Shown here: in pieces, positions 3,452 through 21,182 of the stretch | How the letters are laid out: each line of letters begins with the position of its first letter | How positions within the stretch are numbered: the stretch's first letter is position 1 | IMG/VR virus record: IMGVR_UViG_3300005613_000379 | Location: 1-25,432 of that record | Direction: 5' to 3' (one strand) | Length of the DNA stretch: 25,432 nt | DNA from: a virus | Translations under genes and position numbers: made by a program | The notes under the pieces: model-generated | What the model saw: the letters and a program-made list of their open reading frames with translations, nothing else | Told to the model about the DNA's origin: nothing | Databases searched by the model: none

Positions 3452-4291
3452 ATGTCTGAGATTGAGTGGAAGGGGTATGAATCTAATCCAACTAACAACT
3501 TTGCTGCCAAGTGGTATCTTAATGGCTTTCCGAAGTCAGGGTTGCACTTAGCGGTACAGTTCATCAAGAGGTTGACAAAGAAGATGCCCCTCGGACAGCT
3601 TCACCCGCGCCCTTGGGTGGGGACGTTTAAGCACAACTCATGGTCTGAAGAGTGGCAAGACATACAGATGCAACTGTATAACCTATCACGCTGTATGCCA
3701 GGTCATTACTTCAAGGGCCATTGTGCTTACAAGCCTGAAATTGAACACTTTATGTGGTATCTTGGCTTGGCGCATGTCTTTATCTACAGAGACTTAAGAG
3801 ACGTTGCGGTAAGTCAAGCATATCACATCTTGAGTGACAATGAAGACCTGAAGCATCCTGCTAAAGACCGTTATCGTGAATTGGGTGAGTTTGATGAGGT
3901 GTTAGAAGCCGTAATTGTGGGCCTAGATGAGTTTCCAGGCATAGTGCATAGATGGGAAGCGTATGCACCTTGGCTTGAAGTGGAGTGGGTATACAAGTTC
4001 CAGTTTGAGCGGGTGTTAAGCGATCCGAAAGAGACAGCGGGGGAACTCGTCATGTATGGCCTGCAAAGGATTTCTGACATATACAAGCTCAACTTAAAGC
4101 CTGCGCCTGAGAGTGTAGCAGCAATGGTAGATGCGATGACGGAATCTGCGGTAGACAGAAAGGAAGAGGCTTTAACGTTCCGCAAGGGCAAGTCGGGTGA
4201 GTGGAGAACCGAATTCACTCAAAGGCATATAGAGTTGTTCAAGGAAACAGACCAGGCTGGATGGATAGATAAACTTGGTTATAGGTGGTAG
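3452..4291 (+). CDS. Sulfotransferase-like protein
   Basis: A 279-aa protein with the two PAPS-binding signatures of sulfotransferases. The 5'-phosphosulfate loop is NGFPKSGLHL (residues 24-33; Lys28, Ser29, Gly30), and the 3'-phosphate motif is IYRDLRDVAVS (111-121; Arg113, Ser121). Between them lies HYFKGHCAYKP (85-95), like the KGH.xY segment near the acceptor site, and the C-terminal part has FERVLSDPKETAGEL. The family moves a sulfuryl group from PAPS to a hydroxyl or amine of a sugar, lipid or other acceptor. One oddity: the Thr usual after KSG (KSGT-H or KSGTT) is Leu31. It lies between head genes, so it may modify a virion component or a host glycan; the substrate is unknown. Confidence 0.85.
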   Translation: MSEIEWKGYESNPTNNFAAKWYLNGFPKSGLHLAVQFIKRLTKKMPLGQLHPRPWVGTFKHNSWSEEWQDIQMQLYNLSRCMPGHYFKGHCAYKPEIEHFMWYLGLAHVFIYRDLRDVAVSQAYHILSDNEDLKHPAKDRYRELGEFDEVLEAVIVGLDEFPGIVHRWEAYAPWLEVEWVYKFQFERVLSDPKETAGELVMYGLQRISDIYKLNLKPAPESVAAMVDAMTESAVDRKEEALTFRKGKSGEWRTEFTQRHIELFKETDQAGWIDKLGYRW

Positions 4292-6615: not shown

Positions 6616-6629
6616 TCTAGGAGTTGAAC

Positions 6630-7613
6630 ATGAAGCAATTCCGATGGATTATCCTTGCTTGCGTGGTTGCTGTTGTAGGCGCGAGTGCATTACTGGTTGC
6701 CTGCAATGGCGTAGAAACACAATCACAGGGCCTGTTTGTAGATTGGCACTCGTTCCACAGCGCGGCCACGGCATCTGCAAGCGGAACAGCTATGGATACA
6801 GAAGGCTACCCTGCATTGACTATCAGCGTAGAAGGCATCAGCGGTGATACTGTACAGTTTGAGCAGACCGTGGATGCGAGCACGTGGTATTCGTTGCCGG
6901 TAGTAAACATGGTAACAGGTGCAGTGATTACGTCTACTACAGCAGATGGTATGTTCTATGCACCGATTAATGCCGATCAGGTGAGGTGTGAGCTTGCGTA
7001 TTCTGCTGGCACGGTTACGGTATTAGGAATAGCCAGCACCAACGATGCGGACATACTAACACGTAACGAGGTAGATGGTGTGCAAGTCGTAGACGCCACG
7101 GGCCAAGGCGATGTGCCCATCACTCTCGACAGCGAGGTGGTGTCCGCTGACGTCACAGGCCAGGGCGACGTGCCTATCACGCTGGATGGCGAGGAGCCAA
7201 CCATTGCCGACATCGAGGACGGCGGCGGGACGAGCATCATGGACTCGACGCTGAATGCAGCCCAGGTAGTCGTTCAGGCCACTGCCACCGTGACCAACGT
7301 CACGGGCAGTAGCACCATCAACATCGACTATGCGCCAGGCGTCACCTTCTGGCTGGAGTCTGTAACGCTGCATCTTAGCAGTGCGCCAACCACCAGCGAG
7401 AACTTCACCGTCGTGCTGAACGCTTCGGATGGTGCGGCATACGACACGACACTGGTAAGCGAGGACTTGTCCTCCGGGTCAGAGTCCAATTTGCTGTACC
7501 AGCCCGAAGGCGGTAGTCTGCTATGCGAGAGTGGAGATCAGATTGACGTAGATTTCGCCAACAGCGACAGCCGGACGTATGGCGTTCGCATTGTAGTGAG
7601 ATTGGCGGAATAG
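6630..7613 (+). CDS. Lipobox-bearing beta-rich phage protein
   Basis: The ATG at 6630 is preferred over the in-frame TTG at 6624 because AGGAG (6619-6623) is well spaced only from 6630. The 327-aa product has a lipoprotein-type signal: MKQFRW, a hydrophobic core, then LVAC with Cys25. The mature part is Ser/Thr/Val-rich and probably all-beta, with a discoidin-like or fibre-like look (FEQTVDASTWYSLPV). Around residues 155-190 there are two copies of TGQGDVPITLDxE, about 51 bp apart in the DNA. The C-terminal half (about 7255-7613) is a beta-sandwich-type region ending in SRTYGVRIVVRLAE. It directly precedes the DGR target gene (stop 7613, next ATG 7622), so it may be made with it. Function is unknown; a surface or virion protein is inferred. 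Confidence 0.7.
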   Translation: MKQFRWIILACVVAVVGASALLVACNGVETQSQGLFVDWHSFHSAATASASGTAMDTEGYPALTISVEGISGDTVQFEQTVDASTWYSLPVVNMVTGAVITSTTADGMFYAPINADQVRCELAYSAGTVTVLGIASTNDADILTRNEVDGVQVVDATGQGDVPITLDSEVVSADVTGQGDVPITLDGEEPTIADIEDGGGTSIMDSTLNAAQVVVQATATVTNVTGSSTINIDYAPGVTFWLESVTLHLSSAPTTSENFTVVLNASDGAAYDTTLVSEDLSSGSESNLLYQPEGGSLLCESGDQIDVDFANSDSRTYGVRIVVRLAE

Positions 7614-7621
7614 GAGGAATA

Positions 7622-9214
7622 ATGCCTATAGTACTGGATGGCAAAGAAGTTGTTGACCAGATGAACGTTCGTCGTGACGCAAGCGCGTCGGGCGAGGTGT
7701 TGCGCTGGGATCAGATGCTAGACGAAGACGATATGGCGTCTGACTCCGCAACCAAGGTAGCCACTCAGCAGTCCGTTAAGGCATACGTGGACGCACGACA
7801 GTATTACGGCCTCACGTGGGATGAGGACGCGGACAGCTATGCTCGCACGGGGATGTTGGCTGGTATAGCTGCTGGCAGTTCGCCAGGTGATGCCGCGCTG
7901 CCTATTCATGCGAGGATGCGTCGTTGTATTATCAGTGATGCTGGTGAAGTGCAATACTATCTCAACTCGAACGATAGCACCAAGAAGGTAGACGGTAGTG
8001 CAGCGGACTTGACAGGCGCAGACGGCCAGGTCATGGTGGAGATTCCATGCTTTTGGTACAGGTATTCGTACTCTGGCACGACCCACCGTTGGGACATCAG
8101 TGAGTTTCCATTGCCTGGGTTTACTCGCCATCCTGCCTTTGTCAAGAATGGCGCCAATGTGGATGTCCGCTATGTGGGCGCTTACGAAGGCGTGTTATAT
8201 GACACATCTGAAAGCAAGTACGTGAACGGACTATACCTGCCGTCGGATGCCAGCTACAAGATGACGTTCACCAATGTTGATGACAAGATTGAGTCGGATA
8301 CGTTGACACACCCATTCACCAATATTGAGGTGGGCGTGGACAAGATCGTCGTCAGCGGCACGGTGAACAACAACGGTACATACGATGTGGTTACACAAGG
8401 CGATGATTTCATCACAATTGGCGCGGGCGGAACGCTCACGGATGAAGCGAATGTTGCCTGTGTGATTCAGGTGCAACGAGACTGGACAGCGACTACGGGA
8501 GATGTGTTAGGGTCTGTGTCGGGCAAGGCTCCCATGAACTATGGCACGCGGGCCAACTTTCGCGCTGCGGCAGCCACGCGCGGGACAGGCTGGCGACAAC
8601 TTGATTTCTACTTAGTTTCAGCCATTCAATTACTTTATCTGGTAGAGTACGCCGACTTCTACTCCCAGTCCATGATCGGGAGCGGGTTGACGGATTGGAG
8701 TTCAGCCTGGCCTGCGTGGAATAACTCCAATCCAATCGAGACAACGGGGAACAGCAACTCAGACGGTGATGCAACTGCCAATACGAGTGGGGGTGACGGA
8801 GCAACTGGTTCGTACATGTCCTACCGTGGAGTTGAAAACTGGTATGGGCATGTTTGGGCGTGGGTTGACGGGTTCAACATCAACAGCAACGTGCCTTATT
8901 TCAGCAACACTGATACGGATTTTGCTGATGACACGGCGACGAACTACGATGATCCTGGTGTGACGCTGGCAGCTGCCAATGAGTATCAAAACACGCTTGA
9001 GCAGATAGACGAAGGTTTCTTGCCTGCGAGTGTGGGTAGTCCTGGCACTGCGACGACGAAGATTACTGATTATTACTATCAAAGTACCGGTTGGCGGGTC
9101 GCTCTGATGGGCGGGTGTGCGCTTAATGGCGCGTTTGCGGGCGCCTTCTATTGGTATCTGAATGACGCCTCCTCCTATCTGAATCGGCATTTCGGCGGTC
9201 GGGTCTCGTTTTGA
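7622..9214 (+). CDS. DGR-diversified tail/surface protein with C-type-lectin-like C-terminus
   Basis: A 530-aa protein with a strong AGGAGG site. Residues 36-57 (DDMASDSATKVATQQSVKAYV) match a short motif common in phage tail-fibre N-termini, which suggests virion attachment. A beta insert lies at about 215-285. From about residue 320 (RGTGWRQLDFYLVSAIQLLYLVEY) to the end it has the layout of the C-type-lectin fold of DGR targets, related to the formylglycine-generating-enzyme fold. The last 41 residues (490-530) are the variable repeat, which is nearly identical to the template repeat 164 bp downstream. Compared with the template coding, residues 491, 492, 499, 512, 515, 516, 519, 522, 523, 524, 526 and 527 differ through adenine changes. 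These residues probably form the ligand-binding face. A receptor-binding role is inferred from known DGRs. Confidence 0.9.
   Translation: MPIVLDGKEVVDQMNVRRDASASGEVLRWDQMLDEDDMASDSATKVATQQSVKAYVDARQYYGLTWDEDADSYARTGMLAGIAAGSSPGDAALPIHARMRRCIISDAGEVQYYLNSNDSTKKVDGSAADLTGADGQVMVEIPCFWYRYSYSGTTHRWDISEFPLPGFTRHPAFVKNGANVDVRYVGAYEGVLYDTSESKYVNGLYLPSDASYKMTFTNVDDKIESDTLTHPFTNIEVGVDKIVVSGTVNNNGTYDVVTQGDDFITIGAGGTLTDEANVACVIQVQRDWTATTGDVLGSVSGKAPMNYGTRANFRAAAATRGTGWRQLDFYLVSAIQLLYLVEYADFYSQSMIGSGLTDWSSAWPAWNNSNPIETTGNSNSDGDATANTSGGDGATGSYMSYRGVENWYGHVWAWVDGFNINSNVPYFSNTDTDFADDTATNYDDPGVTLAAANEYQNTLEQIDEGFLPASVGSPGTATTKITDYYYQSTGWRVALMGGCALNGAFAGAFYWYLNDASSYLNRHFGGRVSF
9089..9206 (+). repeat. DGR variable repeat (VR)
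   Basis: This 118-bp segment at the 3' end of the target gene aligns without gaps to 9253-9370 (offset 164). There are 14 differences. Thirteen are at positions where the template has A: 9093, 9096, 9117, 9155, 9164, 9167, 9176, 9186, 9188, 9191, 9197, 9201 and 9206. The changes are A to G (8), A to T (4) and A to C (1). One is not at A: template C9287 is T9123 here. The GC-rich 3' end (about 9193-9205) is the likely region for initiation of mutagenic homology; just after it the two copies differ by TCG versus AGC. Confidence 0.95.
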
Positions 9215-9231
9215 TACATTACATAATATCT

Positions 9232-9401
9232 TGGTTTTCCATATAGTACTCAGGTTAGCAGGTCGCTCTGATGGGCGGGTATGCGCCTAATGGCGCGTTT
9301 GCGGGCGCCTTCTATTGGAATCTGAATAACACCTCCTCCAATCTGAATCAGAATATCGGCAGTCAGGTCAGCTTATCTCAATCTGTAGATATGGAAAACC
9401 A
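9232..9401 (+). ncRNA. Putative DGR template RNA core closed by a 13-bp inverted repeat
   Basis: TGGTTTTCCATAT (9232-9244) is perfectly complementary to ATATGGAAAACCA (9389-9401), and the two arms enclose the whole template repeat with short spacers on each side. This would let the template RNA form a closed stem next to the start of the spacer that leads to the reverse transcriptase gene (9371-9485). In the Bordetella phage DGR, the RNA downstream of the template repeat is structured and needed for priming cDNA; an equivalent role here is inference. Confidence 0.55.
9253..9370 (+). repeat. DGR template repeat (TR)
   Basis: The invariant donor copy of the variable repeat, lying in the gap between the target gene and the reverse transcriptase gene. 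It has 25 adenines, many as AAT or AAC codons in the frame of the target gene (NLNNTSSNLNQNIGSQ), the usual design of a template repeat, because AAC/AAT codons give wide amino-acid choice and no stop. Thirteen of the 25 adenines are changed in the variable repeat. In the target frame it carries a TAG stop at 9256-9258, which is TGG in the variable repeat. Confidence 0.95.
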
Positions 9402-9485
9402 TGCCTCTTGGCAAAACACAAAGCAAGGCTCCATAAGTGCCGGTAGGATGGACGCATCTCGAAGGCTCTGGAGCAAAATAAGCAG

Positions 9486-10550
9486 ATGAAAAGATACGGT
9501 TACTTGTATGAAAAGATGTGGGATATGGATAATATCCGAGAGGCTCATCATAACGCACAACGTGGCAAGCGGTATTATCGCGAAGTGCAGATGGTGAACG
9601 CAGACACAGAGAAGTATCTGAGTCAAATCCAAGCTATGCTGCGGGACAAGACATTCCACACCTCAGAGTATGAGGTGTTCACCAAGGCTGACGGTAGTAA
9701 GGAACGAGAGATTTACAAGCTGCCATACTTTCCAGACAGGATTGTGCACCATTGCATCATGCAAATACTTGAGCCTATCTGGATGAAGACGTTTATTACA
9801 GATACCTATTCATCGTTAAAGGGGCGCGGTATCCATAAGGGCGTCCAGCGGATGAAATTGGCATTACAAGACAGGAAAAATACTCAATATTGCTTGAAGT
9901 TTGACATTCGCAAGTTCTATCCGTCAATTGACCATGATGTTCTTAAAGCAATCATCCGTAAGAAGATAAAAGACCCTGGTGTTCTATGGCTGTTGGATGA
10001 AATCATTGATTCAACTGAAAGTGGTGTGCCGATTGGTAACTATCTCAGTCAGTACTTTGGCAATCTATATCTGGCATACTTCGACCATTGGATGAAAGAA
10101 GAAAAGCGTTGTAGGTACTATTTTCGTTATTGCGATGACATGGTTATACTACATAGTGATAAGCAATTTCTACGCCAATTGTTTGAAGATGTGCAGGAAT
10201 ATCTATTTACCAATTTGAACTTGGTGGTCAAATCCAATTATCAAGTATTTCCAGTAGAAAAGCGAGGTATTGACTTTTTGGGTTATAGATTCTTTCACGA
10301 TTACACGCTTTTGCGTAAAAGTATTGCGCAACGCTTCAAAGCTAAGATACTGAAGATTAGGCAAAGTTGGAGAAACATGAGGCCCAGCCAGATTATAAAC
10401 GGCATTATGAGTTATTGGGGCTGGATGAAATATGGGAATTGCTTTAATCTTGCCAAGAGGTACATTGATAAGGAAATTGAGCAGATTGTGGCAGAAACCT
10501 GCGAGGCTAATGGAACGAAAAATCCATTGAGGAGATTAAAATGGCAGTAA
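9486..10550 (+). CDS. DGR reverse transcriptase
   Basis: A 354-aa reverse transcriptase of the group-II-intron/DGR type. Motifs in order: YKLPYFPDRIVHH (77-89), SSLKGRGIHKGVQRM (109-123), LKFDIRKFYPSIDH (137-150, catalytic Asp140), GVPIGNYLSQYFGN (180-193; the GxPxGNxxSQ form is typical of DGR enzymes), YFRYCDDMVIL (212-222, catalytic Asp217 and Asp218), and GIDFLGYRFF (261-270). It lacks maturase and endonuclease domains, as expected for a DGR enzyme. It makes cDNA from the template RNA with errors at adenines, which then replaces the variable repeat. The ATG overlaps the end of a reading frame that runs out of the template repeat. The gene looks more AT-rich than the glycosidase gene downstream. 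Confidence 0.96.
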   Translation: MKRYGYLYEKMWDMDNIREAHHNAQRGKRYYREVQMVNADTEKYLSQIQAMLRDKTFHTSEYEVFTKADGSKEREIYKLPYFPDRIVHHCIMQILEPIWMKTFITDTYSSLKGRGIHKGVQRMKLALQDRKNTQYCLKFDIRKFYPSIDHDVLKAIIRKKIKDPGVLWLLDEIIDSTESGVPIGNYLSQYFGNLYLAYFDHWMKEEKRCRYYFRYCDDMVILHSDKQFLRQLFEDVQEYLFTNLNLVVKSNYQVFPVEKRGIDFLGYRFFHDYTLLRKSIAQRFKAKILKIRQSWRNMRPSQIINGIMSYWGWMKYGNCFNLAKRYIDKEIEQIVAETCEANGTKNPLRRLKWQ

Positions 10551-10942
10551 GCGAAAGCGGTACTTACCCAGAAACGTTCGCCAAATCACGCGGGCGCACG
10601 CTGTTTCGGTGGAATATCCAAGAGGAGCAGGTAACTGACCCTGTGACTGGCGAAGTGACCACCAAGTATGTCTACGATGAAGTAGCAATTGAGGGCAATG
10701 TCACCAAGGCCAAAATCCTGGAGGCCATGCGCCTGGCGGACATCGAAAGTGCAGACTCGGAAGGGAGCGCACTGGCAGAATACGAGGTCGCAAATACCAA
10801 GCTCGCCAAGATAGCCGATTTGACCTATGCGCAGCTGGATTCATACATAGACAAGAATGTGACTGACTTGCCTTCTGCGAAGGTCTTTCTGAAGGACTTG
10901 GCGGCCGTGGTTCTGGCGGTTCTGAAGCGCCTGGGGATCTAA
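10541..10942 (+). CDS. Phage hypothetical protein downstream of the DGR
   Basis: The 133-aa product overlaps the reverse transcriptase gene by 10 bp and has a ribosome site (GAGGAG) inside it. Its N-terminal half is beta-like and acidic (TLFRWNIQEEQVTDPVTGEVTTKYVYDEVAI). The C-terminal half is helical: LAKIADLTYAQLDSYIDKNV, then DLPSAKVFLKDLAAVVLAVL. This helical end is a recurring pattern in small phage proteins coded beside tail-fibre genes. I looked for Avd, the usual DGR partner (a basic four-helix-bundle protein); this is acidic and half beta, so I do not call it Avd. Function is unknown. Confidence 0.7.
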   Translation: MAVSESGTYPETFAKSRGRTLFRWNIQEEQVTDPVTGEVTTKYVYDEVAIEGNVTKAKILEAMRLADIESADSEGSALAEYEVANTKLAKIADLTYAQLDSYIDKNVTDLPSAKVFLKDLAAVVLAVLKRLGI

Positions 10943-12039
10943 TGCGAGGAGTAGCCATCCTTTGCTTGCTCGTCGTCATCACCGCAGGCTATCTGATAGC
11001 GCATACTGACGCGCCAGTTCAGGGCATCGGCGTCGGCTGGGACGAGGGCACGCAGCAGGAGATTGACGCTGTGGCAGAGTGGTACTACAACTGGGGACAC
11101 AACCGCGTCCACGCCGACTACCACCCGATGGTGTGGTGTGGCTTGAGGCAGTCCGTTCTGGACTACGCCGCGGCGCATCCGGGCAAGACGTGGCTGATCT
11201 CAAACGAACCGAATTGTCCGTACCAGTGTGGCAAGTATGTGGAAAGCGCGGCTGAGGCCGGCGCACAGGACAGAGAGACGATTGACAATATCCTGGCCGT
11301 AGACCCATCGGCCATGTTCCTGATGGGCGGCCTGTACTCGTTCGATCCAGACTGGATCAGCTACTCAGAGGACTATTGGCAAGCATTGCGTGGCTGGGAG
11401 ATACCGGAGATCATCGGCTGGCACATCCACATCTACCATGAGTGGAATGCTTGGGGCCCGTATCAGGAGCACCGCGACAGAGTGTACGGCGAGTTTGTGG
11501 ATGGCATCACGGAGTGGCGGCAGCGATGGCCTGACGGTGAGCTGTGGCTGACCGAGTGGGGGCCGCTGGGGTGGTATGCGCTGACGTGGCCTGACAGCAT
11601 CCTGGACTACATGGAGCGGACGATTGACTGGATGGAGAGCAGCGGCAAGGTAGATCGTTACGCCTGGTTCGCGCTAAAGCAGGTGCCCGATTACGCGGAC
11701 TATGCAGCCTACTTGTTCGGTATGGAAGGCAACCTGACGGTGTATGGTCAGCAGTATGCCAGTTACCTGAGCGGCGCACCGCCGACGAGTATGCCAGAGC
11801 CAACGCCAACGAACACGCCACAGCCAACACCGACCAGCACGCCCATGCCTGCGCCAGACTACCCTGATCACGACTTGAACGAGGACTGTGTGGTGGACAT
11901 TCAAGACGTGATGCTGGTAGCGGCTTGCTGGCGAGACTATAGCGGATACTGCATGGCGATGGATCTGAACGGAGACGGGCGGATCAACGTGGTGGACATC
12001 ATGCAGGTGGCGGCGCATTGGGGAGAGGTGTGCGAATGA
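10942..12039 (+). CDS. Secreted glycoside hydrolase (GH128-like) with C-terminal dockerin
   Basis: A 365-aa protein in three parts. Residues 1-20 are a signal peptide or N-terminal membrane anchor. Residues 27-275 look like a TIM-barrel glycosidase of the Glyco_hydro_cc/GH128 type: YYNWGHN (48-54), HPMVWCG (61-67), ISNEPN (86-91, candidate acid/base Glu89), GWHIHIYHEW (159-168), LWLTEWG (201-207, candidate nucleophile Glu205), and YAWFALK (240-246). The known family cleaves beta-1,3-glucans; the substrate here is unproven. A Pro/Thr linker (284-305) leads to a type I dockerin with two Ca2+ loops: D311, N313, D315, D319, D322 and D341, N343, D345, N349, D352. The gene overlaps its upstream neighbour by 1 bp. 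A dockerin in a phage structural region is very unusual. Confidence 0.85.
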   Translation: MRGVAILCLLVVITAGYLIAHTDAPVQGIGVGWDEGTQQEIDAVAEWYYNWGHNRVHADYHPMVWCGLRQSVLDYAAAHPGKTWLISNEPNCPYQCGKYVESAAEAGAQDRETIDNILAVDPSAMFLMGGLYSFDPDWISYSEDYWQALRGWEIPEIIGWHIHIYHEWNAWGPYQEHRDRVYGEFVDGITEWRQRWPDGELWLTEWGPLGWYALTWPDSILDYMERTIDWMESSGKVDRYAWFALKQVPDYADYAAYLFGMEGNLTVYGQQYASYLSGAPPTSMPEPTPTNTPQPTPTSTPMPAPDYPDHDLNEDCVVDIQDVMLVAACWRDYSGYCMAMDLNGDGRINVVDIMQVAAHWGEVCE

Positions 12040-12995: not shown

Positions 12996-13604
12996 ATGGC
13001 TACTTTGACCTTGCAGCCAGCCAGTGGAATTGATGCCGCCATTGACTCATACAGGCCAACCACCAATCTTGGCTCAGACTACTTGTTTGCTGTTGGATAT
13101 GACAACCAGAGAATTTATAGGCAGCTGATCAAGTTCGATTTGTCTGCGTTGCCAAGTGGCGCTGACATCACATCCGCCACATTGTCATGGTATGTGAACA
13201 TTGATGTTTCTACTAATCAGACGACTTATCGCGTCTATCGTCTGAAGCGCGCCTGGGTAGAGAGCCAAGTGACATGGAGCATCTACAGTACAGGCAACAG
13301 CTGGCAAGTTGCTGGTGGATTTGGTGCTAACGATTGTGAACAAGTGGACATAGGAAGCCGCATATTTACAGCTGCTGAGACCACAAATGAGTTCAAGGAT
13401 TTTGCACTAACGCCAACTACAAAGGCTGGTCTTGATTTAGGGAATGGCTGGCTAATCAAGGCAGACAACGAGAGCGTGCAGGCACAATATCGTGGCTTTT
13501 CTTCTGATTGGGACACAGCGGCTCAAAGGCCCAAGCTGGTCATAGAATACACGGGCGGCGTCGTGCCAGTAGCTATGAGTTCTTATAGGCGCAGGAGAGT
13601 ATAA
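12996..13604 (+). CDS. DNRLRE-like (CBM96-type) carbohydrate-binding protein
   Basis: A 202-aa protein of one domain. The pattern DAAIDSYRPTTNLGSDYLFAVG, then QLIKFDLSALPSGADITSATLSWYV, VYRLKRAWVESQVTWSIY, and a final QRPKLVIEYTGG is the DNRLRE/CBM96 beta-sandwich pattern found in secreted and cell-wall proteins that bind glycans. The C-terminus ends with basic SSYRRRRV. There is no signal peptide. The gene abuts the connector (TAGATG) and overlaps the next gene by 1 bp (TAATG), so it is probably a virion protein. Glycan binding is inferred from the family. Confidence 0.7.
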   Translation: MATLTLQPASGIDAAIDSYRPTTNLGSDYLFAVGYDNQRIYRQLIKFDLSALPSGADITSATLSWYVNIDVSTNQTTYRVYRLKRAWVESQVTWSIYSTGNSWQVAGGFGANDCEQVDIGSRIFTAAETTNEFKDFALTPTTKAGLDLGNGWLIKADNESVQAQYRGFSSDWDTAAQRPKLVIEYTGGVVPVAMSSYRRRRV

Positions 13605-18088: not shown

Positions 18089-18511
18089 ATGCCTGTAATT
18101 ATCACTATAAAGTCGCGTGGCCTGACAGAGCTGTGTCGGAGGTATCATGAATCTCCAGCGATAGTGCAAGGGCTAATTACTTTGGCGCTGACTAATAGTG
18201 CAGGAGCGGTGCATAAGAAACTGCGTACATATACGCAGTCATATCCACGTCAACGCGAAAGCGCATATATTCGTACCTTTGCCTTGATGCAGTCTGTGGA
18301 TTGTAAAGTTGAGCTAAATACTGCATGGATTACGGCGGGCCGTGGCATAGATTATGCTAGCAAGGTATGGGGTTATGATGAGCAGCTGGAAATGCACAAA
18401 CACATGGGTTGGTGGACGAATAAAAGTGTGGCAGAGGATATGCGTGGTGTGATAGGAAAGCATTTTGTGAATTCTGCAAAGAAGATGTCGGAGTATCTGA
18501 GCGGTGGCTAA
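18089..18511 (+). CDS. Small protein before the tape measure
   Basis: The start at 18089 is chosen over the in-frame ATG at 18020 because GGGAG (18076-18080) sits 8 bases before it and because the 18020 start lies inside the frameshifted chaperone. The 140-aa product is basic and has a helical start (SRGLTELCRRYHESPAIVQGL), then NSAGAVHKKLRTYTQSYPRQRESAYIRTF, and ends in helices. The layout (helix, TPYRTGxLRxS-like segment here as YPRQRESAYIRTF, KxWGxxE-like YASKVWGYDEQL) is reminiscent of HK97 gp10-type morphogenesis proteins. It overlaps the tape measure gene by 8 bp. Confidence 0.6.
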   Translation: MPVIITIKSRGLTELCRRYHESPAIVQGLITLALTNSAGAVHKKLRTYTQSYPRQRESAYIRTFALMQSVDCKVELNTAWITAGRGIDYASKVWGYDEQLEMHKHMGWWTNKSVAEDMRGVIGKHFVNSAKKMSEYLSGG

Positions 18512-21182
18512 TTCTACTGTGGTAGAGATCATCTTAAAAGCCAGGAACGAGGCATCCGAGGCGTTGAAGCAGGTAGGCGTGGCAGCCAACAACCTGCGCG
18601 CTCAGATGAGTCAACTTGGAGTTGAGATTGCCTCTGGTCGTAATGCCTGGGAGCAGCTCACTCTGCCGACTTTTACATCACATGTAACTAAGCTTGGCAG
18701 CTCATTTAAGTCAGTTGATAATACCATGAAGCAGTCCGTTTTGCCAGGATACGATGCTCTGATGCGCAAGACCAGTGGCGCCATGACGCAGCAAGATCGT
18801 GCGGCACAAACGAACAAGATGTTGGGGCAGGCCATGCGCGATATGGCCGCGCGCCAGACAGAAGCTGCTGAGGTGGCAACGATCATGGACGGTGTATACC
18901 GCGCCCTGACATTGACTTTCTTGGCTGTTGGGGCGGCAGCTTCCAAACTCGCGTTATCGGCAGTTATGACTGCGGCAAGGACAGAAGAGTTGGCGTTGAT
19001 CACAGAGCGCATGGCCACAACACATGGTTATGGCGTGCAATATGTACAGCAATTGGAGGAATCCATAAAGGAGCTCGGTATCACCACGCAGGGTGCCAGG
19101 CTAATTCTAACTCAGTTTATGGGTTCTAACATTGGTCTGGCAAAATCAACAGAGATGGCGCGTGCTGCTCAAGACCTAGCCACACTGGCCATGGTGGACA
19201 GCTCGGAAGCAGCTGCCGACCTAGCATATACCGTGGCGTCGTTACAGCCGAGATTGCTAAGAAAGTATCGTATTTACATTAGCCTGGTCGATGTTTATAG
19301 AGAGGCGGCGCAAGAGTTAAACAAAACTGTTGTAGCATTAACTGATTATGAGCGCCAACAGGCATTTGTGAATGCCATCTTGGAGGAGGCGGCAGATTAT
19401 ACTGACTTGTACGAACAGAAGATGCGCACCGCTAGTGGGCGCGTGCGGTCTATGCCGAGATATTTGCAGGAGCTACGCAATGAGCTTGGTGAAGGCTTGA
19501 TACCGGTGCTAGATGGCGTAGCTTTAGGTTTCAAAGATGTCACCGATTTGTTGCGTGGGCTACCAGATGTTGTACAGACAGCAATAGCAAGTCTGGCTGC
19601 AGTTGCTGGAGTTCTCACCACGATCACGGCGGCTACGCGCATGATAGTTGGTGCAAGTGTCTTTCAGGCTATTGCATTACCATTCTTGAAGCTGGCAATA
19701 CCCATCGCAGTTTTGACTGGATTGTTATTGGTGTTACGCAGCCGGTTTCAGGATGTTCAGGAGGCTATGCAAGATATTAGTATAGAGGGTGAGAAAATTC
19801 GCAAAGAGTACATACAAAAAGGACAAACATACGATTCGCTTTTAGGGAAAATCGAAGAGGTTTACAATACCGAGTTGGGCCTTGCGGACAAGGTTGTTAT
19901 TTTTGTCACCGGCGGATTAGACCAATGGAAGCTAGCCCTAGCCGGAACTCGCGAAGAGTACGAAAAGCTCAAGCGTGAAATGGAGGCGGCCGTGGAGGCC
20001 GCAAAGAGGACGGGGCTTGTCGCCGATGATGTCAAGCGATCTTGGCACGCTGCTACAACAGGTGTGAAGCAGCACATTGTTTCTTTAGAAGGTTTGGAAT
20101 CAGCATATGGTGATGTGTGGATTGGCATGGCCAAGTTTTTCACTGATTCTTGGCGAGCCGCACAGGATAATGCTGCTGGATTGTTAACCATTCAGCGTCG
20201 GCGACAACGCATTGAGTCTGAGATAGCCAAGAGTGGATATAGTGAGAGACTGGCAAGCCAGCACGACGCCATATTGGAAGAGCAGCATGCCGCCGAGGAG
20301 GCGGGGAAGAGACTGCAACTGGAGCAGCGTCGCCAGCTAGGCGCAATGTTAGCTCAAGCTGCCGAGACAGCCGGATTAAGCGTGGGCTTCCAGTTTGATA
20401 TTATGGAACAGTTTGGCACGATTAGCAAGGATGCGCGCATCGAAGCGGAGAAATATATCAACATAATTGACTCCGTAAAATCTCAGGCTTTGACAGAGGC
20501 TGAGGCCCTACATGCTATAATGTCAGAGGCGATGCCAGCAGACGAGATGCAGATAGCAGCTGAGGCGGCTGATATTTTGGCTACGAGTATGGAAGAACTG
20601 GATGAGGCTATAGTAAGATTTAGGACGCGACTTGATGCATTGCAATTCGTTACTGAATCTGGTGTCGAGGTGCCCGGTTTTGAGGAGGCGATGGCTGGAA
20701 CACAGGTGCAGAAACAGTTCGAGGCACAGCAATTGGTAGAGGCGCTCAACCGTTATCACACCAAGGGCGTGCTGACGCCTGGATTCTATCGCAACCTGCT
20801 AGGCAGTGTAGCGCCCATTTCTGATATTGGCACTAGTGCAGAGCAAACATTATCGGTTAGTCAGGTTGCCACTGACGCTCTTTTGGGGGCGCTCCGTCAC
20901 TATCATACTGAGGGGCTGATGACGCCCGGGTTTATGCGTGACGAGAGTGGCAATATAATTCGTATACCGGGATTTTCTAGTGGCGGCGTTGTGCCTGGGG
21001 CCCTTGGGCAACCACAGCTCATTTTGGCACATGGGGGCGAAACAATTACGCCACTTGGCATGTCAACTCCTGCGCTGTCTATAAACATAGGCTCTCTGTA
21101 TGGGACGGATGAAAGCACCGCGATGAATTTTGGACGCTTTCTTGCTACAGAAATGCGGAGGCAGAACGTAATAACGAGGTAG
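18504..21182 (+). CDS. Tail tape measure protein
   Basis: An 892-aa protein starting with GTG, 8 bp inside the previous gene. It is mostly helical with coiled-coil stretches at the N-terminus (about 1-130), a first hydrophobic segment (131-157) and a large hydrophobic hairpin (357-411, IASLAAVAGVLTTITAATRM...LTGLLLVL), the arrangement of siphovirus tape measure proteins that enter the host membrane at infection. The C-terminal part has two similar units, RYHTKGVLTPGFYRN and HYHTEGLMTPGFMRD, and ends with the common GFSSGGVVPGALGQPQLILAHGGE motif. At 0.15 nm per residue the tail would be about 130 nm. It sets tail length; the family call is firm. Confidence 0.92.
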   Translation: MANSTVVEIILKARNEASEALKQVGVAANNLRAQMSQLGVEIASGRNAWEQLTLPTFTSHVTKLGSSFKSVDNTMKQSVLPGYDALMRKTSGAMTQQDRAAQTNKMLGQAMRDMAARQTEAAEVATIMDGVYRALTLTFLAVGAAASKLALSAVMTAARTEELALITERMATTHGYGVQYVQQLEESIKELGITTQGARLILTQFMGSNIGLAKSTEMARAAQDLATLAMVDSSEAAADLAYTVASLQPRLLRKYRIYISLVDVYREAAQELNKTVVALTDYERQQAFVNAILEEAADYTDLYEQKMRTASGRVRSMPRYLQELRNELGEGLIPVLDGVALGFKDVTDLLRGLPDVVQTAIASLAAVAGVLTTITAATRMIVGASVFQAIALPFLKLAIPIAVLTGLLLVLRSRFQDVQEAMQDISIEGEKIRKEYIQKGQTYDSLLGKIEEVYNTELGLADKVVIFVTGGLDQWKLALAGTREEYEKLKREMEAAVEAAKRTGLVADDVKRSWHAATTGVKQHIVSLEGLESAYGDVWIGMAKFFTDSWRAAQDNAAGLLTIQRRRQRIESEIAKSGYSERLASQHDAILEEQHAAEEAGKRLQLEQRRQLGAMLAQAAETAGLSVGFQFDIMEQFGTISKDARIEAEKYINIIDSVKSQALTEAEALHAIMSEAMPADEMQIAAEAADILATSMEELDEAIVRFRTRLDALQFVTESGVEVPGFEEAMAGTQVQKQFEAQQLVEALNRYHTKGVLTPGFYRNLLGSVAPISDIGTSAEQTLSVSQVATDALLGALRHYHTEGLMTPGFMRDESGNIIRIPGFSSGGVVPGALGQPQLILAHGGETITPLGMSTPALSINIGSLYGTDESTAMNFGRFLATEMRRQNVITR

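Follow-up and report, generated by a model that had tools for sequence, protein, structure and literature searches.

An Avd-less diversity-generating retroelement with target-TR-RT order in a tailed phage, with a putative RNA helix bracketing a template whose 5′ half is adenine-poor

Introduction

The diversity-generating retroelement (DGR) of BPP-1 comprises a target gene with a 3′ variable repeat (VR), a template repeat (TR), a spacer RNA and a reverse transcriptase (RT) with the motif SQ. There the RT is brought in by the spacer RNA, and cDNA synthesis starts from an internal adenine as primer and is halted by RNA lying upstream of the TR (PMC12875486). Furthermore, a hairpin behind the VR is needed (PMC3240598). 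TaqVP (5vf4) is a DGR variable protein with an FGE-type C-type-lectin fold (PMC6328139), whose DGR has been described as structurally similar to that of Bordetella. For DGRs of the target-TR-RT type, the absence of avd has already been reported (PMC7290462, on lineage 3 and crAssphage LMMB, citing Wu et al. 2018).

Here we describe a DGR of the virus record IMGVR_UViG_3300005613_000379. The window, i.e., the whole stretch of DNA analysed, is the entire record of 25,432 bases. Like lineage 3/crAssphage LMMB, the element exhibits the order target-TR-RT, no detectable avd, a predicted C-type-lectin target and a location among the structural genes of a tailed phage. Neither the RNA family RT-17 nor a helix bracketing the TR was found described in the accessible part of the LMMB paper, and the adenine-poor 5′ half of the template is a feature of the copy in the window. 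With BPP-1 the element has in common a target with a 3′ VR, a TR, a spacer RNA and an RT with SQ, whereas Avd, the RNA family RF03022 and the hairpin after the VR, all present in BPP-1, were not found in the window. The target resembles TaqVP in its predicted FGE-type fold and in its C-terminal VR (PMC6328139), at an identity of approximately 22%.

Results

An earlier note on this DNA had claimed a complete DGR with target gene, TR and RT, arranged as VR, TR and RT within 2.9 kb. All components were confirmed, their order was borne out on the + strand and all coordinates proved to be correct:

7622..9214, + strand: target gene encoding a 530-aa tail protein with a tail-fibre-like N-terminus (phrog_5302)
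9089..9206, + strand: VR, with 14 differences from the TR, 13 of them at TR adenines
9253..9370, + strand: TR, from the ungapped VR/TR comparison
9486..10550, + strand: DGR reverse transcriptase of 354 aa with IGNYLSQ (residue 183) and YCDD (residue 215)

The VR is located at the 3′ end of the target ORF, ending at the stop codon. Aligned without gaps at an offset of 164, VR and TR form the 118-bp pair proposed in the note, with 14 differing sites including 13 template adenines; the sole mismatch elsewhere is C9287 of the TR versus T9123 of the VR. As the TR contains 25 adenines among its 118 bases, the binomial probability of at least 13 of 14 mismatches residing at A is approximately 2e-8. 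Because the mismatch 9206/9370 is the outermost position of the repeat, the count for positions 9089-9205, with 13 mismatches, 12 of them at A, is the safer one. An exact 27-base stretch common to VR and TR matched no other viral contig. Out of 98 related loci, 77 disclosed an adenine-biased repeat whose end lies 98-169 nt ahead of the RT; the A bias of 97% across loci is partly selected, because detection demanded at least 75% of the differences at A. In seven of the 21 loci without such a repeat, fewer than 400 bases separate the RT from the end of the contig. Five related DGRs (L044, L051, L067, L078 and L080) possess two tandem VR-like copies, both matching one TR, and L078 additionally contains a 560-bp near-duplicate.

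The RT ORF matched RVT_1 (E 5e-15) and the reverse transcriptase family phrog_1423 (E 1.6e-126). Its closest PDB relative was 8ub7 (E 7.5e-40), which we take to be the DGR RT of BPP-1. Relatives with up to 87% identity were detected in viral contigs, others in crAss-like and further phages and in bacterial genome records, mostly of Bacteroidota; the identity to the RT of crAssphage LMMB is 44.5%. The DGR motif SQ was present at all 86 loci with an open RT frame. Weak NCBIfam matches to group II, Drt3a, Drt2 and retron RTs might be taken to indicate that the RT is of the retron, Abi or DRT kind, not of a DGR, and lies beside a chance repeat. These matches were all far below the cut-off, however, and the BPP-1 RT yields similar ones. 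Together with the phrog_1423 match, the adenine-specific VR/TR pair, found here and at 76 other loci, refutes this explanation, whose probability we regard as negligible.

That the element belongs to the structural region of a tailed phage, as had been supposed, was corroborated by a capsid gene, by weak tape-measure matches and by the tail-protein PHROG of the target itself:

1598-2956: capsid protein (Pfam match PF05065)
18504-21182: tape measure protein (weak PHROG matches)

The match of the target to the tail protein family phrog_5302 covers residues 48-530 (E 9e-90). Weak matches to tail fibre PHROGs (residues 22-134) and a weak phmmer match of the N-terminus to the PDB protein 9efk ('orf22') agree with the suggested phage fibre-type N-terminus. 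No Pfam family was matched by the target. A full-length model of the target, calculated with 11 sequences, was poor (pLDDT 42) and set aside. The last 241 residues gave an AlphaFold2 model with a pLDDT of 84 and a pTM of 0.84:

8489..9211, + strand: FGE-type C-type-lectin domain by predicted structure, residues 290-530, ending in the VR

This model matched TaqVP with a VIA-align Z of 17.8 (rmsd 2.8 Å over 209 residues) and Mtd with a Z of 9.2. A profile search with the domain returned 5vf4 as the sole match (E 5e-9). Thus, the C-terminal domain of the target has a predicted FGE-type C-type-lectin fold, in line with the C-type-lectin-like protein of the note.

Among named homologues of the entire target, the closest is that of Methanosarcina virus MetMV (43%), where no RT is annotated near the tail-protein gene. 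A short direct repeat occurs at 7114-7138 and 7171-7195 within the preceding ORF (6624-7613) and again at 7623-7647 at the start of the target gene; it is possibly a common N-terminal attachment motif. Other genes of the window include a 279-aa ORF with a sulfotransferase domain (3452-4291, PF00685, E 3e-8) in the structural block after the capsid gene and, likewise in the structural region, a glycoside-hydrolase catalytic core followed by a dockerin domain at the C-terminus (10942-12039). The protein encoded at 12996-13604 (Disaggregatase-related repeat/CBM96 domain) and the relatedness of the target to a Methanosarcina virus protein hint at an archaeal host but do not show it. A capsid protein 96% identical to that of the window is encoded by the 7.7-kb contig 3300005613_002734 (L135:4525-5880), which probably stems from a close relative.

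Between TR and RT, the whole 95-position Rfam model RF03020, which Rfam labels RT-17 RNA and nothing further, could be aligned:

9397..9489, + strand: spacer RNA, RF03020 (RT-17), 50.4 bits versus a gathering score of 40.4
9402..9413, + strand: spacer-RNA hairpin P2 (TGCC-TCTT-GGCA), from the RT-17 alignment, with compensatory changes

Out of 50 records of relatives, 42 matched RT-17 at E <0.005 and 16 exceeded the gathering score; in those with locus coordinates the match ends at the start of the RT. Sub-threshold RF03020 matches were also obtained beside the RT of crAss-like and Perkons records. In BPP-1 the equivalent position is occupied by RF03022 (Phage_DGR), for which no match was found in the window. 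RF03022 scored over the cut-off in ten of 12 BPP-1-type and none of eight RT-17-type records, RF03020 in none of 13 BPP-1-type records. TR and spacer, folded as a single sequence, were modestly better than shuffles (z -1.5). A search for promoter signals gave none above chance.

Inverted repeats of at least 7 nt were sought in the region 9180-9420. A single pair emerged, whose arms flank the TR and are 144 nt apart, and no hairpin or cruciform was found downstream of the VR:

9232..9244, + strand: left arm of helix P1, TGGTTTTCCATAT, an inverted repeat with covariation in relatives
9389..9401, + strand: right arm of helix P1, ATATGGAAAACCA, an inverted repeat adjoining the RT-17 hairpin

P1 is located outside the RF03020 model, the first positions of which are unpaired and correspond here to the 3′ end of P1. 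Among relatives the letters of the arms vary with the pairing retained, as in Psychrobacillus phage Perkons (GGCATTCAGCACTCA/TGAGTGTTGAATGCC), L022 (GGTTTCGGGCGG/CCGTCCGAAACC) and a Halanaerobiales record (GGCAAATAAATTC/GAATTTATTTGCC), and at most loci the right arm directly adjoins P2. Within an unselected, dereplicated set of 45 loci, the right arm paired best with the left arm of its own locus at 21 loci, with one expected. An alignment of 17 loci showed 93.7% of the cells paired and 11 of the 13 pairs changed on both sides, with a covariation of 0.836 versus 0.202 in shuffles and 0.10-0.22 with slid partners. As this set was hand-picked, containing arms that pair without bulge and are joined by an artificial linker, the test on 45 loci is the fairer one. 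The pair scores of own versus swapped arms amounted to 11.3 versus 8.0 for the RT-17 type and to 7.5 versus 7.3 for the BPP-1 type, a comparison that disclosed no P1-like pairing at BPP-1-type loci. It was clearer than an unanchored duplex-energy comparison, which splits the two types weakly since long loose duplexes dominate. BPP-1 itself revealed no perfect stem of at least 6 nt positioned like P1 beside the spacer hairpin; a 9-bp complement lies deeper in its spacer.

Target recognition in BPP-1 uses a DNA hairpin near the VR (PMC3240598), and P1 could by the same token be a DNA element, either a cruciform for target recognition or the remnant of a mobile element. We judge this to be very unlikely, as the arms flank the TR at their distance of 144 nt instead of lying behind the VR, no further inverted repeat accompanies them in the region scanned, the right arm directly adjoins the RT-17 hairpin in relatives, and the conserved cells include G-U pairs, as expected of RNA. 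On the evidence of the compared sequences, the template RNA would be closed by a conserved, covarying helix, P1, that brackets the TR.

The Avd families PF22296 and PF05635 were absent from the window, although an accessory gene might be located beyond the ends of this 25-kb fragment. bAvd was found in BPP-1 and in none of 38 other records (the window and 37 relatives). The Avd profile matched 57 of 59 BPP-1-type and none of 98 RT-17-type loci, though the association between P1 and a missing Avd reflects a single split between two clades and is thus confounded by ancestry. A family of unknown function, phrog_19665 (~100 aa), was present at 68 of the 98 RT-17-type loci, mostly right after the RT, and at none of the 59 BPP-1-type loci (L010:3467-3760, L024:9050-9337, L058:8947-9255 and others). 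It is a candidate accessory of Avd-less DGRs. The family was found neither in the window nor in the closest relatives of the latter, whose records comprise 40-75 kb, so that the DGR may need RT and RNA alone, or host factors. The ORF following the RT was tried as another accessory gene:

10541..10942, + strand: 133-aa ORF with a homologue beside the MetMV tail protein (E 1e-12)

This candidate was rejected because its homologue adjoins the tail-protein homologue of MetMV, a gene with no DGR; the ORF probably goes with the tail fibre and is not part of the DGR.

The two halves of the TR differ in composition. The 5′ half includes a block that is nearly identical to the VR:

9261..9318, + strand: adenine-poor, VR-like 5′ block of the TR, 56 of 58 bases equal to the VR

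In an overlapping 60-nt codon block the A fraction is 0.12, the lowest of 32 distinct templates, compared with 0.27-0.31 in the closest relatives, and there are four VR/TR differences as against 6-16 in other templates. Relatives have AAT/AAC codons at the variable positions of the 5′ half. That of L007 reads GTA GCT CTA CTT AGT GGC AAT GCA AAT AAT ... AAC ACT GAG GAG, that of the window GTC GCT CTG ATG GGC GGG TAT GCG CCT AAT ... TTT GCG GGC GCC, i.e., with VR-type letters; AAT, AAT and AAC of L005/L007 are replaced by TAT, CCT and TTT. The TR of L035 represents a milder case (K, T and Q replacing N). The 3′ half of the window TR retains its AAY codons, and its 45-nt block is normal, with all seven differences at A. 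These data suggest that the 5′ half of the TR was overwritten by an older VR allele (VR-to-TR conversion). Several formerly variable codons would thereby be fixed and diversification concentrated in the 3′ half, the still-diversifiable region being narrower than the 118-bp repeat suggests.

The main alternative is an assembly artefact by which a VR allele of the population was joined into the TR. The contig is metagenomic, and VR and TR have identical runs of 20 and 31 bases, which might favour such a join. Inside the block, however, TR and VR differ at 9281 and 9287, and the block is thus not a copy of this VR. Moreover, the A bases proper to the TR are preserved at 9257 and 9260 5′ of the block and throughout the part 3′ of it, which would demand two separate joins. 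We therefore hold an artefact to be unlikely. A decaying or inactive DGR, in which the adenines of the 5′ half were lost once diversification was no longer selected, would agree with the low A fraction, the few VR differences and the one non-A difference within the block. It is quite improbable in view of the intact RT ORF with SQ and YCDD, of intact P1 and RT-17, and of the 3′ half with its AAY codons and its differences confined to A. Overwriting by a VR allele is the reading we prefer.

Discussion

We consider it highly probable that the locus is an Avd-less target-TR-RT DGR, which would rewrite its VR from a helix-closed template RNA and whose TR has probably been partly overwritten. Pairwise similarity to the RTs of crAss-phages points to a new member of a known Avd-less lineage, putatively lineage 3. 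TR and downstream spacer would be transcribed as one RNA, in which RNA just upstream of the TR pairs with RNA just downstream, P1 closing the TR into a loop directly beside hairpin P2 of the RT-17 spacer. The RT would bind this RNA, prime in or near the spacer, copy the TR with errors at adenines and stop near P1. The mutated cDNA would then take the place of the VR that terminates the tail-protein gene and so change the exposed face of the C-type-lectin tip, which probably binds the host surface and may act in receptor binding. In BPP-1 the RNA flanking the TR matters on either side, and by analogy P1 may hold both ends of the TR by the RT and mark the stop of the cDNA.

A more far-reaching idea, which we put forward as a tentative and rather doubtful one, is that in Avd-less DGRs the RNA (P1 and RT-17) takes over the template positioning and stop for which BPP-1 has Avd and its RNA, and that this phage has returned an earlier VR allele to its template, a 'template assimilation' fixing selected residues in the template copy.

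P1 is the newest part of this description; it was not found described in the literature searched, though other papers may already have described P1, or RT-17 as a DGR RNA. Our data connect RF03020, labelled just RT-17 in Rfam, with the spacer behind the template in a large group of Avd-less DGRs. With its strong covariation, P1 makes DGR function without Avd directly testable through one helix. Finally, judging by the VR-like half of the template, even the memory copy may be rewritable, a point relevant to the ways in which DGRs narrow or shift the search.
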